A DNA stretch of 64,000 bases from Pseudomonadota bacterium (GTDB taxonomy: Bacteria > Myxococcota_A > UBA9160 > SZUA-336). Every line of letters starts with the position of its first letter. Within the stretch, counting starts at the first letter, position 1. Of this stretch, positions 417-6,569 are shown piece by piece. The notes beneath the pieces are model-generated. The model saw nothing but the letters and a program-made list of their open reading frames with translations, did not search any database and was not told the origin of the DNA. Both the position numbers and the translations under genes were made by a program. Location: the NCBI GenBank assembly GCA_003247575.1, contig QJZC01000066.1, positions 1 to 64,000 of the forward strand, written 5' to 3'.

Positions 417-2645
417 ATGCTTGGCCACTTGGTAGCGAGAAACCGCGAGCAACGGCGGCATTCGGAATCTGCTGCCGATCCCCCAGGTGTCTTCATCAGC
501 TACCGGCGCACGGACAGCTCGGGGTACGCAAGCTGGCTTGCGCACGAGCTGCGAAGACACTTCCCGGCGATCGCGATCTTTCAAGACATCGCGATCGAAG
601 CGGGAGCCAATTGGATCGCCGCGATCGACTCGGCCCTTACCTCGAGTGTTGCGCAGCTCGTTGTGATCGGCCCCCATTGGCTCGCTGTAGAGAGCGACAA
701 GGGAGGCCGCCGCCTCGATGACGCGCAGGATCCGATTCGACGCGAGATCACTGCGGCTCTCGAGCGCCGTGTGCGAGTGATCCCACTGCTCGTCAGCGGC
801 GCGTCGATGCCCGCCGCTGAAGATCTCCCGAGTGACCTACGAGCCATCGCCGAGCTGCAGGCGCACGAGCTCAGAGATTCCAGCTGGGCATACGACATCG
901 AGAGCCTTGCAAAATCACTCCAGCGCATTCCCGAGCTGAACGAGCCACTCCTTCGCCGCGCTTGGCGCGTTGGACGGCGCCCGATGATCTATCTGGCCGT
1001 GGCCTCCGCAATCGGACTGCTTGCCTGGCGCCTCGCGGTGCCAACCTTGGCGCGGATTAGCCTCAACGAGATGGGCATCTCATACACTGCAGAGGCGTTC
1101 GCCGAGGCGTGCACGTCGGAAGACATGCTCGTTCTCGAGCTGTTCTTGAAGAGTGGAATCGACCCGAACTCATCGGGTAGCGGGGACTGGACTCCCCTAG
1201 AGCGCGCGGTCGCAGCAGGAAGGCGCGGTGTAGTTCAGCGTTTGCTCGCATCTGGAGCGGACCCAGGCGTCGGCTTGTACCGAGCGGCTGCGCGGGGCTA
1301 TGGCGAGATCGTGGAGATCCTGCTCGAGCACGGCGCCGACATACGTGCTGCTACACGCGAAAATTTCAACGGGAGATGGGCGTTCTCCTTCGGCTCCCCC
1401 CTTGCCGTAGCCATCGCGCACACTCATCTCGACGTAGCGATGCGCCTCCTCGAGCGCGGAGCTCCCGTTGTCTCTGAGCCTCGGACTAGGACCCCTCTCA
1501 TGGCTGCCGCAGCGATGGGGGATGGGCAGCTCATACGTCTCCTGATCGAAAAGGGCGCGGATCCGAACGCCGGAGATCCGGGTTGCTGGACGCCGCTCCA
1601 CTACGCAGTGCACGAGCTCCGCTTGGAAGCAACGAAGACGCTTCTCGCTGCCGGCGCCGATCCGAACGCTCAGCCCTGCGACGCCGATCCGTCCGGCCGG
1701 AGTCCGAGCCTGCCTGGGCTCCTGCTAGAACGTAAGGTCATGAAGTATTCCCTGAGCAGCTATCCCGTAGGTATCGGTCCCATCGCCTCTCTGGAGGATC
1801 GGCGCGCGACTGTCCCCGTGCTGTTGGAGGTGCTACTGAAGAACGGGGCGAATGCCAACACACCCGTAGGTGCGTTCAACCGAGTGCCCATTCAGCACGC
1901 GCTGATGAATCTCTATTCGAAGGATGCGCTTGAGTTTGTAGTGAAATCTCTCCTCGCTCATGGTGCGGATCCGAACGCGGTCGACGAGAAGGGCAAGACG
2001 GTGCTCATGTATGCCGCCGCGAACGATCACTCTGCCGCCGTGATCCCTGCCCTCGTCGAAGCGGGTGCAGACGTGAACGCGCGGGCACCGAGGGGCGCGA
2101 GCGCATTGTCCCACGCCATAGAATCCTACTCCGAGGACGCGGTTCACACGCTTCTCGATGCCGGCGCCCAGGTCGATCCGGACGCGCTCCTTGTTTTGAC
2201 CGGCTCCTCCACGGTCGCCAGCAGACTGAAGCAGCGATCGAGCTATAGAGAGAAGAGCCTGAGTTTTGATCTGGAGTCGTCTCTGATCGAACGCGGCGCG
2301 CGTGCCGATGTGGTCGATACCCTCGGCCGCACGGTCCTCATGCGCGCGCTCGACAGCAGTCCCACCTACGAATCAGACCTTGATCTCCACCTCGCTGCCC
2401 TCATTCGCTACCTGATCGGGAAAGGCGCTGATGTGCGCGCAACGGTCCGCGAGGGAACCCAGAAGGGCTGGACCGCCCTGATGTTCGCAGCACAGATTGA
2501 CGCTGTGCGATCAGCGGGCGCACTGCTGGAAGCCGGAGCCACTTTGGATCGCAGGAATGTCGACGGAGAGACCGCTCTCGACATTGCGGACAAGGAGGGC
2601 TCGACTCGAGTCGCGCGACTGCTTCGCTCGAACTCTGGACCTTAG
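417..2645 (+). CDS. TIR domain - transmembrane - ankyrin repeat protein
   Basis: A 742-residue protein. Residues 24-170 form a bacterial TIR domain: it opens with VFISYRR, continues with a DI...PG-like loop around 57-63, and has the segment PIRREITAAL followed by VIPLLV. E110 is where the catalytic glutamate of NAD-cleaving TIR domains falls. Residues 189-208 are one hydrophobic helix. From about 225 to the end there are many ankyrin-type repeats (patterns such as TPLxxA, LLxxGADPN). The predicted layout is a cytoplasmic TIR, one membrane span, and a C-terminal ankyrin recognition domain whose side of the membrane is uncertain. Bacterial TIR proteins often act as NADases in immunity or as protein-interaction modules; which applies here is inference. 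The start is set by a GAGGGG Shine-Dalgarno sequence. The gene borders an insertion-sequence-rich region. Confidence 0.88.
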   Translation: MLGHLVARNREQRRHSESAADPPGVFISYRRTDSSGYASWLAHELRRHFPAIAIFQDIAIEAGANWIAAIDSALTSSVAQLVVIGPHWLAVESDKGGRRLDDAQDPIRREITAALERRVRVIPLLVSGASMPAAEDLPSDLRAIAELQAHELRDSSWAYDIESLAKSLQRIPELNEPLLRRAWRVGRRPMIYLAVASAIGLLAWRLAVPTLARISLNEMGISYTAEAFAEACTSEDMLVLELFLKSGIDPNSSGSGDWTPLERAVAAGRRGVVQRLLASGADPGVGLYRAAARGYGEIVEILLEHGADIRAATRENFNGRWAFSFGSPLAVAIAHTHLDVAMRLLERGAPVVSEPRTRTPLMAAAAMGDGQLIRLLIEKGADPNAGDPGCWTPLHYAVHELRLEATKTLLAAGADPNAQPCDADPSGRSPSLPGLLLERKVMKYSLSSYPVGIGPIASLEDRRATVPVLLEVLLKNGANANTPVGAFNRVPIQHALMNLYSKDALEFVVKSLLAHGADPNAVDEKGKTVLMYAAANDHSAAVIPALVEAGADVNARAPRGASALSHAIESYSEDAVHTLLDAGAQVDPDALLVLTGSSTVASRLKQRSSYREKSLSFDLESSLIERGARADVVDTLGRTVLMRALDSSPTYESDLDLHLAALIRYLIGKGADVRATVREGTQKGWTALMFAAQIDAVRSAGALLEAGATLDRRNVDGETALDIADKEGSTRVARLLRSNSGP

Positions 2646-3052: not shown

Positions 3053-3299
3053 CTATGGATTCGGGTGAGCTTCGGCGATGCTGACCAACCGCTTCGTCAG
3101 GCTGCCCGGCTTGCCACTCGACTGGTTCGAGAGCACGACGATCACGAGTTCGTCGTCGAAACCGATTCGCCAGAACGATTTCGCCCCGCGCTGAGATCCC
3201 GAATGAGAGAAGGTCTTACCGGGCCAGAGCTCCTTGAGGGAATCAGGCTCGATGACCTCGCCCCGCAGCACCTTGATCCCCAGTTGCGTACAACGGACC
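3053..3299 (-). pseudogene. C-terminal remnant of a beta-lactamase-family serine hydrolase
   Basis: The minus-strand frame encodes about 80 residues, including FSHSGSQRGAKSFWRI and DDELVIVVLSNQ. These match the C-terminal end of class C beta-lactamase/esterase-type serine hydrolases: the H-x-G motif that replaces KTG, followed by the last beta strands. The N-terminal catalytic part (SxxK, YxN) is missing. The fragment begins exactly at the left end of the IS21 element, and the missing half is not found beyond the right end. The IS terminal repeat supplies an in-frame ATG (start at 3310), so a short peptide could still be made, but the gene is almost certainly dead. Confidence 0.72.
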
Positions 3300-3417
3300 A
3301 TCGTGAACACCTCGATCGGGATCGTGAACAGCTAGATCGGCGATCGTGAACACCCCCAGATCGGGATCGTGAACGCCTTAATCGGGATCGTGAACACCTG
3401 GATCGGGGATCGTGAAC
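3300..3417. repeat. Left-end array of six IstA-type repeats
   Basis: The core ATCGTGAAC occurs at 3300, 3321, 3343, 3366, 3387 and 3409, all in the same orientation, with centres 21-23 bases apart (about two helical turns). Most copies sit in a longer unit of the form GATCGGGATCGTGAACACC. IS21-family elements are known to carry several transposase-binding repeats near each end; six at one end is a long array. Confidence 0.85.
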
Positions 3418-3510
3418 ACCCGCTGCGGGTGCTTCGGGCGAGAGCCCGGTAAAGCAAGCGCAGCGGCGCACGGCAGACGGCTTCTGGGCCCTCGATGAGG
3501 AGGGCTCGGG

Positions 3511-5103
3511 GTGGCTGGGGAGAGATTGTCGATGCGTCCGATCCGTCGGATCTTGCGAGGGAAGTGGGTAGAGGGGCTTTCGCACCGGGAGCTGGGGCGT
3601 GGGCTGTCGCTGAGCGTGGGGGTGATCAGCTCGACGTTGCGTCGTGCGGCTCAGGCGGGGCTGGACTGGGCTTGGGTGGAGGGCCTGTCGGACCCGGAGC
3701 TGGAAGTCCGTCTCTACGGTGGGGCGTCGCCGAGCGGGGCTTCGAGGCGCGGGCTTCCGGACTTCGCGGAGGTGCATGCGGAGCGTCAACGCCGCGGGGT
3801 GACTCTGGCGCTGTTGCACGTGGAGTACTTGGAGTCGAACCGCGACGGCTACGGGTACACGCAATTCTGCGAGTACTATCGTCGCTGGTGCAAGAAGCGC
3901 CGCCTTTCGATGCGTCAAGTGCACCGTGCAGGCGAGAAGCTGTTTGTGGATTACTCGGGAAAGAAGCCGAGGATCTACGACACGAGCCGAGAGGGCCGCG
4001 AAGTCGAGCTCTTCGTCGGGACGCTGGGAGCGTCGAGCTTCGTGTATGCGGAGGCGACGGAGACTCAGAAGAGTGTAGATTTCATCTCGAGCCACACGCG
4101 GATGCTGGAGAAGCTGGGCGGCGTCCCGTTGGTGATCGTGCCGGACCAGCTCAAGAGCGGTGTCACGCGTGCGTGTCGCTACGAGCCGGGTCTGCAACGT
4201 ACGTACGCGGAGTGGGCGGAGCACTATGGGACGACGGTGATCCCAGCGCGTCCCCGCAAGCCGCGAGACAAGGCGAAGGTCGAGGTCTCGGTCCAGGTGG
4301 TGCAGCGGTGGATCCTGGCTCGAATCCGGAACGAGCGGCACCGGTCGCTCGCGTCTTTGAACGCACGCATCGCCGAGCTCTGCACCGAGCTCAACGCGCG
4401 GCCGATGCGCGCCTATGGCCAGAGTCGTCGGGAGCGCTTCGAGGCGCTCGACCGCCCTGCGCTTCGGCCTCTGCCCGTCGAGCGTTTCGCGTATGCGGAG
4501 TGGAAGCAGGCTCGCGTCAACATCGACTACCATGTCGAGGTCGGTCGTCACTACTACTCGGTTCCGCATCACCTGCTGCACGAGACGGTGGAGGTGCGTG
4601 TCGCGTACAGCACTGCGACGGTCGAGGTGTACTACCGCGGCACGCGTGTGGCCTGCCACGCGCACCACGTGCGGCGAGGTGGACACACGACGGATCCGCG
4701 TCACATGCCGCGCTCGCATCAGAAACATCTGGAGTGGACCCCGAGTCGGCTGATCGACTGGGCCTCCAAGATCGGCCCGGAAACGCGCGCCTTGGTATCG
4801 GAGATCCTGACGGAGCGCACGCATCCAGAGCAGGGCTACCGATCGTGCCTGGGCATCCTTCGCTTGGTGAAGCGCGACGGTGCCGAGCGTGTGGAGGCCG
4901 CGAGTGCACGAGCACGCTCTGGCAAGGCGCGATCGTATCGCTCGGTCGACACGATCCTGCGACGGGGTCTGGATCGGATCCCGCTTTCCGAGACCCATGA
5001 CGCGCCGGTGTCTCCACCTACACGAGTCGATCACGAAAATGTACGCGGAGAGGCGTACTACACGGCCGCTGTGCCACACCCCAAGGAGAAAGAAGAATGC
5101 TGA
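3511..5103 (+). CDS. istA: IS21-family transposase IstA
   Basis: A 530-residue transposase. The N-terminus carries a helix-turn-helix (about residues 10-50) for binding the end repeats. The Mu/retroviral-integrase-type catalytic core has its triad at D147 (FVDYSG), D212 (VPDQLKSG) and E258 (DKAKVEVSVQ). The C-terminal region ends in a basic tail. The GTG start at 3511 is chosen because AGGAGG lies 7 bases upstream; an ATG at 3532 with GGGGAG upstream is the alternative. The final codons overlap the istB start (ATGC...TGA), the normal coupling in this family. The frame looks intact, so active IstA may still be made. Confidence 0.92.
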   Translation: MAGERLSMRPIRRILRGKWVEGLSHRELGRGLSLSVGVISSTLRRAAQAGLDWAWVEGLSDPELEVRLYGGASPSGASRRGLPDFAEVHAERQRRGVTLALLHVEYLESNRDGYGYTQFCEYYRRWCKKRRLSMRQVHRAGEKLFVDYSGKKPRIYDTSREGREVELFVGTLGASSFVYAEATETQKSVDFISSHTRMLEKLGGVPLVIVPDQLKSGVTRACRYEPGLQRTYAEWAEHYGTTVIPARPRKPRDKAKVEVSVQVVQRWILARIRNERHRSLASLNARIAELCTELNARPMRAYGQSRRERFEALDRPALRPLPVERFAYAEWKQARVNIDYHVEVGRHYYSVPHHLLHETVEVRVAYSTATVEVYYRGTRVACHAHHVRRGGHTTDPRHMPRSHQKHLEWTPSRLIDWASKIGPETRALVSEILTERTHPEQGYRSCLGILRLVKRDGAERVEAASARARSGKARSYRSVDTILRRGLDRIPLSETHDAPVSPPTRVDHENVRGEAYYTAAVPHPKEKEEC

Positions 5104-5877
5104 ACGAACCGACCCGAGAGAAACTGGCGGAGCTCCGCCTACATGCAATGAACGAGGCTTGGAAACTACAACAGGAGGACGCCGACTCCTCATCGGATCC
5201 CTTCGACGTGCGCTTCGGTCATCTGGTGGATGCGGAATGGATCGAGCGCCAGAACAAGCGCCTGGGCAGGGCCCTGCGCGAAGCCCAGCTCCGCATCCGT
5301 GATGCCTGTCTCGAGGACGTGGCCGCGTCCCCCTCACGTGGCCTCGAGAAGGCCTTCGTCCGGGAGCTGGCAACGTGTCGTTGGGTCGTTTCTCATCACA
5401 ACCTGACGGTCACCGGATCCCTCGAGCGGAGTCGGCAAGACGTACGTGGCGTGTTCCCTTGCGCAGCAGGCCTGCCGCAAGGGATACCGGGCCTTGTATC
5501 GCCGGGCTCCACGTCTGTTTGATGAGCTGACCTTGGCCCGTGCAGAGGGTAGCTACGGGCGTTTGCTCTCGAAGATCGCCCGTATCGACGTGCTCGTGAT
5601 CGATGACTGGGGGCTGTCTCCCATCGACAGCGTACAGCGCCGGGACCTGCTTGAGATCCTGGAGGATCGCTACGGTCATCGCTCGACAATCCTCGCGAGC
5701 CAGCTGCCGGTAGACCGCTGGCACGAACACGTCGGCGACGCGACGATCGCGGATGCGGTGTGCGACCACCTGCTGCACAATGCCATCCCAATCGTGCTGC
5801 GAGGAGAGTCCCGCCGCAAGCTCGCCGCCCGGTCCGAAGCGAAGCGAGAGCGCAGTCCGGCGAGCGAGGAGTCCTAG
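5097..5877 (+). pseudogene. istB: IS21 helper ATPase IstB, frameshifted
   Basis: The first frame (5097-5522) gives the N-terminal domain (MLNEPTREKLAELRLHAMN...). The second frame (open to 5877) gives the C-terminal AAA+ part, with VLVIDDWGL (Walker B) and SQLPVDRWHEH. The frames switch inside the Walker A loop at about 5415-5430: expected coding is ...VTG-xxG-VGKT, but there is a net +1 offset (one or four extra bases). Together the two parts give about 260 residues, the normal IstB length. IstB is the ATP-dependent target-selection partner of IstA. A broken Walker A should abolish function unless the shift is a sequencing error or is bypassed. Confidence 0.85.
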
Positions 5878-5997
5878 AGCATCCCGTCGCTTTCGCTCCG
5901 ATTGAAGAACGATTGAGATTTTAGAGAGAAGAAAGAAGAGATCAGAGCCAACCAACACCGGACGTCGCTGCGCCTGCCCCCAAAAGTACAACGCCGC

Positions 5998-6028
5998 GTT
6001 CACGATCCCCGATCTTGGTGTTCACGAT
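5998..6028. repeat. Right-end inverted repeats of the IS21 element
   Basis: Two copies of GTTCACGAT (the reverse complement of the left-end core) lie at 5998-6006 and 6020-6028, 22 bases apart. The outermost copy pairs with the left-end copy at 3300. The right end therefore has two repeats against six on the left. Confidence 0.85.
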
Positions 6029-6569
6029 GACCGAAATACGCACTCAAACGCCCGCCGCGCGCCTTCTGGAATCGGACCACATCGAGCACTCCATGAAGGA
6101 GCGGTTGCGCGGCGTAGCAGTCACGGTGGACCCCCTGCGACTTCTCGACGAGATCCGCGCGGTCCAGCAGCACCTGGCAAACCTCGCGACGGGGGCGGTC
6201 ACGAGCACCCTTCCAGGGCGAGAGGTCGATCTGGATCGCTTCTTGAGAAGCCTCGCGAGTGCGTGGCAAGGGGGCGAGGTTCGGCCAACGCACCAAGTGA
6301 AGCCGAAGCCGGCACGGTCGTGGCGCACGCGACCGGATCCGTTCGAGCACGTTTGGCCTCGCATCCGCGCATGGCTGGACGAGGAGCCTGATCGCACCGC
6401 GAAGGATCTGTTCCAACAGCTGCAGGATGCATATCCCAACCAATTCCCGGCTGGGCAGCTGCGTACACTCCAACGTCGGGTCCGCACGTGGAGAGCGGAG
6501 GCAGCGCAACGGCTCGTCTTCGGAGGAAACAGCGCGCACACCTCGCCCTCGGCCCCATCGCGCGCGTAG
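6029..6569 (+). pseudogene. Fragment of a second transposase/integrase
   Basis: The open frame runs from the right IS end and encodes about 180 residues, including DPFEHVWPRIRAWL, TAKDLFQQLQ and GQLRTLQRRVRTWR. The GQLRT(L/F)QRRV-x-WR segment is a recurrent signature of a family of DDE transposases; no DDE catalytic core is present here. The IS21 end provides an in-frame TTG/ATG (MVFTM), so the fragment begins exactly at the insertion point. The likely reading is that IS21 landed in, or next to, an older and already degraded element. Confidence 0.6.

Follow-up and report, generated by a model that had tools for sequence, protein, structure and literature searches.

A bacterial TIR-membrane helix-ankyrin protein that may act as a receptor with a predicted SARM1-like NADase output

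In the well-studied TIR-dependent defences of bacteria, among them Thoeris and the TIR effectors of the CBASS type, the trigger lies inside the cell, and ThsB, the TIR protein of Thoeris, does not have the receptor layout of the protein described here. The TIR domain of SARM1 has been found to group inside a bacterial lineage (PMC13142454). Neighbourhoods that pair TIR with SLATT, a predicted ADP-ribose-regulated membrane effector, are known from phages of Firmicutes (PMC9503650); ankyrin-TIR proteins are on record in oomycetes (PMC9153377), and caspase conflict proteins have been reported with a CHASE2 module and transmembrane helices (PMC8195603). The literature that we searched held no description of a bacterial TIR-helix-sensor family as such, an absence that is no proof of novelty. 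The present study concerns a gene whose product, judged from its sequence, could serve as a bacterial receptor: its trigger would lie outside the cytoplasm and its response within.

The gene occupies positions 417-2645, on the forward strand, of the window, by which we mean the whole 64-kb stretch of DNA that was analysed. It is an intact open reading frame of 742 codons with an ATG start, a GAGGGGG stretch directly 5' of it, and the GC distribution over the three codon positions (0.69/0.50/0.70) that is the pattern of coding DNA. Residues 25-155 (489-881) form a TIR domain that matches Pfam TIR_2 (PF13676) with an E-value of 4e-13 and 50.3 bits against a curated cut-off of 28. A predicted membrane helix with a positively charged N-side follows at residues 190-208 (984-1040), and the remainder, residues 209-742 (1041-2642), consists of a cap and an array of ankyrin repeats, which Pfam detects over much of the protein C-terminal to the TIR domain (E 3e-51). 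The first-pass annotation had read the gene as a fusion of these three parts, arranged as in a receptor with TIR as its output; the reading frame and the domain matches bear out the fusion, and the domain order and the SARM1-like character of the TIR domain support the layout.

The surroundings of the gene are only partly visible. The window opens a contig of 81.7 kb in a draft genome assembly, and the gene begins 416 bases from the contig end; before it, up to about position 95, are the final 30 codons of what may be a gene in the same direction. Downstream lies an IS21-family element (3299-6034) with istA at 3511-5103 and istB at 5097-5522 and 5446-5877; since istB is split across two frames, it is probably inactive unless frameshifted. 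The ends of the element carry repeated motifs of about 22 nt, ATCGTGAACACC, in inverted orientation. Beyond it, the open reading frames scanned encode surface-polysaccharide-type functions and then mostly housekeeping ones. The description of the region as transposon-scarred and accessory thus holds for one IS21 copy and does not extend to the genes that follow. Among the window's open reading frames scanned, no further convincing defence gene was found and none for ThsA or SLOG, in agreement with the earlier remark that no partner sensor gene stands beside the locus, the upstream side of which ends with the contig. A match to DrmD was set aside as the IS21 IstB ATPase and one to viperin as a radical-SAM enzyme, and Pfam gave no match for the stretch 3053-3310, at first suspected to be a beta-lactamase remnant.

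Among proteins of solved structure, human SARM1 is the best sequence match of the TIR domain (E 2e-7). A family profile built from 49 sequences and run against the PDB retrieved only SARM1 and Caenorhabditis elegans TIR-1 at E <= 1e-5, the best at 5e-16. Glutamate 110 (codon 744-746), the last residue of a D-P-I-R-R-E motif, shows no variation across the 79 proteins aligned. As residue 91 of the query, it faces residue 86 of the SARM1 chain, which corresponds to E642 when an offset of 556, taken from the 724-residue chain (7knq), is applied. We take E642 to be the catalytic glutamate of SARM1, in line with the entry title "NAD+-bound Sarm1 E642A". In an AlphaFold model of the domain, the mean pLDDT is 93.5 and E110 falls within helix 87-97 of the model, helix alpha-C. 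A Foldseek search with this model gave SARM1 or TIR-1 entries, NAD-bound ones included, as its first 35 matches; AbTir, SPARTA and plant TIRs came next. Structure prediction and fold comparison, proposed earlier as a check, hence agree with the suggestion that E110 sits where TIR NADases keep their catalytic glutamate; its placement in the pocket comes from the sequence alignment and the helix rather than from a residue-level superposition.

A scan of 84,980 species yielded 447 TIR relatives, of which the best 80 were analysed; they were found with a three-sequence TIR alignment as query, and a query of TIR plus helix gave none. These 80 belong to Proteobacteria, Nitrospira, Bacteroidota, Acidobacteria, Actinobacteria and other groups. 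A helix follows the TIR domain in 70 of them, often behind a Pro-rich linker, and ten have no clear helix. What lies C-terminal to it varies: in the 78 relatives scanned for modules we found PASTA (6), CHASE2 (5), DUF4190 (3), FGE (2) and PG_binding_1 (2), with SBP_bac_3, TonB_C, tectonin, MORN, TPR and Sel1 as single cases, the last three of which do not by themselves indicate that the C-terminus lies outside. For the most part, then, the family would consist of a TIR domain, a linker, one membrane helix and a swappable C-terminus that is often extracytoplasmic where it can be recognised. Ankyrins occurred in none of the 78, which leaves the window protein as the single ankyrin case in this sample. 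No second TIR-helix-ankyrin protein was found in 91 genomes of the class, in 379 of the phylum, or among plasmids or phages, and no ortholog was found within the same bacterial family. Receptors of TIR-CHASE2 type are present in Accumulibacter and its relatives (L081, L086, L092, L101 and L106). Pfam CHASE2 is found in five proteins of the set of relatives, L081 being confirmed singly and the other four by sequence likeness; these receptors are a candidate tractable set for work on envelope-triggered TIR activity.

The location of the ankyrins depends on the hydrophobic segment. Its mean hydropathy is 1.87 and its N-side, LLRRAWRVGRRP, is charged; it is short, contains one Arg, and sits where 70 of the 80 relatives have their membrane helix. 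In those 70, Lys and Arg are more abundant on the N-side of the helix in 57 cases, the reverse holds in 6, and 7 are ties. This bias favours a TIR domain inside the cell, and the ankyrins would accordingly face the periplasm. The predicted helix and the charge bias together suggest the family's arrangement, a single helix directly after the TIR domain with the N-terminus inside. For the part C-terminal to the helix, the best match is an ankyrin protein (L111) with a lipoprotein-type N-terminus, and elsewhere in the same genome, on contig C28, the gene that follows a TIR gene encodes an ankyrin-SH3 protein (L012, 10366-11664) whose start resembles a signal peptide. In the full-length model (pLDDT 76, pTM 0.49) the ankyrin part has ankyrin solenoids and DARPins as its fold matches, the marginal helix is of low confidence, and the geometry between domains is not readable. 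Domains of the CHASE2, PASTA and family-3 solute-binding types belong outside the cytoplasm, whereas ankyrin arrays are usually cytosolic; from helix position and family topology, the ankyrins of this protein are probably outside the cytoplasm. A helix that probably puts them there brings the layout nearer to a Toll-like receptor with swapped termini than to a cytosolic sensor.

This genome also has other TIR genes. On contig C28, a 926-residue protein that lacks a Pfam family and has a hydrophobic C-terminus is encoded just 5' of the start of the TIR gene, and the whole arrangement (L012, 6646-11664) is possibly a split version of the TIR and exported ankyrin system. By sequence reading, one locus on contig C29 (L010, 6312-9182) combines TIR with a P-loop ATPase-like region and repeats, and one on C30 (L011, 13401-15116) joins TIR, a hydrophobic segment and an FGE-like domain. 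Elsewhere in the same class, a protein of genome G070 (L018, contig C2), likewise read from its sequence, has a different architecture: TIR is fused to an ATPase region of FtsK/HerA-like type, and the end is winged-helix-like.

The first-pass annotation had suggested a defence role and a survey of the neighbours of homologues. Among immediate neighbours of the relatives we counted TIR_2 (9), DUF4231/SLATT (6), patatin (4) and caspase (3) genes, with SLOG and CD-NTase genes as single cases; from the top 25 families listed for a sample of distant genes of the same loci all six are absent, although single members may have fallen below that listing. Of 28 conflict-effector genes found by a profile search of the loci, 22 lie within 3 kb of the TIR gene, a zone that holds 35% of the flanking DNA (binomial p 3.7e-6), a value that leans toward clustering since three of the four partner profiles derive from gene clusters that had been spotted beside TIR genes. 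In the loci of three relatives, the distance from a SLATT/DUF4231 gene to the same-strand TIR gene downstream of it is 4, 19 and 87 bases. The survey thus did bring out SLATT/DUF4231, patatin, caspase and second TIR genes within 3 kb. These neighbours lend support to a defence role of the family and not of the window locus; none of the relatives with this link has ankyrins.

Taken together, these observations are best accommodated by a membrane TIR NADase receptor, which the gene probably encodes, its NADase activity being predicted. One could picture a single-pass (type II) protein of the inner membrane, its N-terminus inside, whose cytoplasmic, SARM1-like TIR domain would be inactive while the protein is dispersed. 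Beyond the cytoplasmic membrane the ankyrin array would bind a ligand, be it a protein, a cell-wall component or something derived from an invader. Binding would cluster the protein so that TIR domains assemble, and E110 would then cleave NAD+, leading to NAD depletion or to a signal of the ADP-ribose type, and the protein may in this way serve in conflict or cell suicide. We give this reading as a whole a probability of about 0.5. It is favoured because E110 is invariant, the fold is SARM1-like, Lys and Arg are biased to the N-side, sister modules are extracytoplasmic, the ankyrin proteins L111 and L012 start with a lipoprotein-type and a signal-peptide-like sequence, and conflict genes cluster near relatives. 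Against it stand P106, the marginal helix, the usual cytosolic location of ankyrins and their absence from the 78 relatives scanned, the ten relatives that have no clear helix and the lack of a visible partner.

Several of these points feed alternative readings. Proline 106 (codon 732-734), four residues before E110 and close to the expected pocket, is unique among the 48 aligned relatives, 47 of which have F, Y or W at this position. Of the features that mark a SARM1-like NADase TIR, a glutamate on alpha-C and SARM1 as the closest solved homologue are present and the aromatic residue four before the glutamate is absent; such an aromatic is common, and bacterial members are not known to require it. 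P106 could lower or alter activity. It is conceivable that it disables catalysis altogether and that the domain is a scaffold for the recruitment of further TIR proteins, of which this genome has several. If the enzyme were dead, however, one would expect E110 to have drifted, and the residues invariant in relatives (E110, Y29, R30, R31, D57 and W88) are all kept, which makes a scaffold improbable. We are also doubtful of a cytosolic or peripheral protein, in which the hydrophobic segment would tether the protein to the membrane or lie buried as a linker and the ankyrins would sense a cytoplasmic ligand, for instance a phage protein, and so free the TIR NADase. The habitual location of ankyrin arrays and the short, Arg-containing and poorly modelled segment are in its favour, yet that segment has the family's helix position and a strongly positive N-side, CHASE2, PASTA and SBP_bac_3 sister modules are extracytoplasmic, and the junction's best match resembles a lipoprotein.

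The membrane receptor that we prefer might, on the other hand, serve an end other than defence. A receptor for envelope stress or development would use sensing outside to shift NAD-derived signals in a cell that survives, and the sensors of cell wall and small molecules among the sister modules, the surface-polysaccharide-type genes downstream and a visible context that holds no defence island all agree with such a role. The SLATT, patatin and caspase genes that adjoin relatives are typical of suicide or conflict systems, however, and we regard the alternative as rather unlikely.

It is tempting to speculate more widely, and we do so tentatively, that such receptors are widespread in bacteria: an extracytoplasmic sensor (CHASE2, PASTA, a lectin-like domain or, here, periplasmic ankyrins) would be joined to a cytoplasmic NADase of SARM1 type, and SLATT, patatin or caspase would often be its partner. 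They would be inverted counterparts of Toll-like receptors and the pool that gave SARM1 its TIR domain. If so, NAD-based suicide or signalling could begin at the envelope, before an invader enters, and the membrane family would be a bacterial setting for SARM1-type TIR domains.

Among described systems, Thoeris resembles the one proposed here in that its bacterial TIR (ThsB) is proposed to make an NAD-derived signal; its ThsA (SIR2/SLOG) has no counterpart in the part of the locus that can be seen. As in TIR-SLATT conflict modules (PMC9503650, PMC7159879), some relatives have SLATT/DUF4231 4-87 bases upstream, whereas no SLATT gene is visible beside the window locus. SARM1 and TIR-1 provide the nearest solved TIR domains by both sequence profile and fold, with a catalytic glutamate that aligns with E110; W638 of SARM1 is replaced by P106, and in place of autoinhibitory ARM repeats and oligomerising SAM domains there are a membrane helix and ankyrins. 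Toll-like receptors likewise combine an extracytoplasmic repeat solenoid, one helix and a cytoplasmic TIR domain, if the topology suggested here is correct. Their leucine-rich repeats are N-terminal and their TIR domain C-terminal, the reverse of the order seen here with ankyrins, and their TIR domains are mainly scaffolds, so that the likeness is one of analogy, not of membership.
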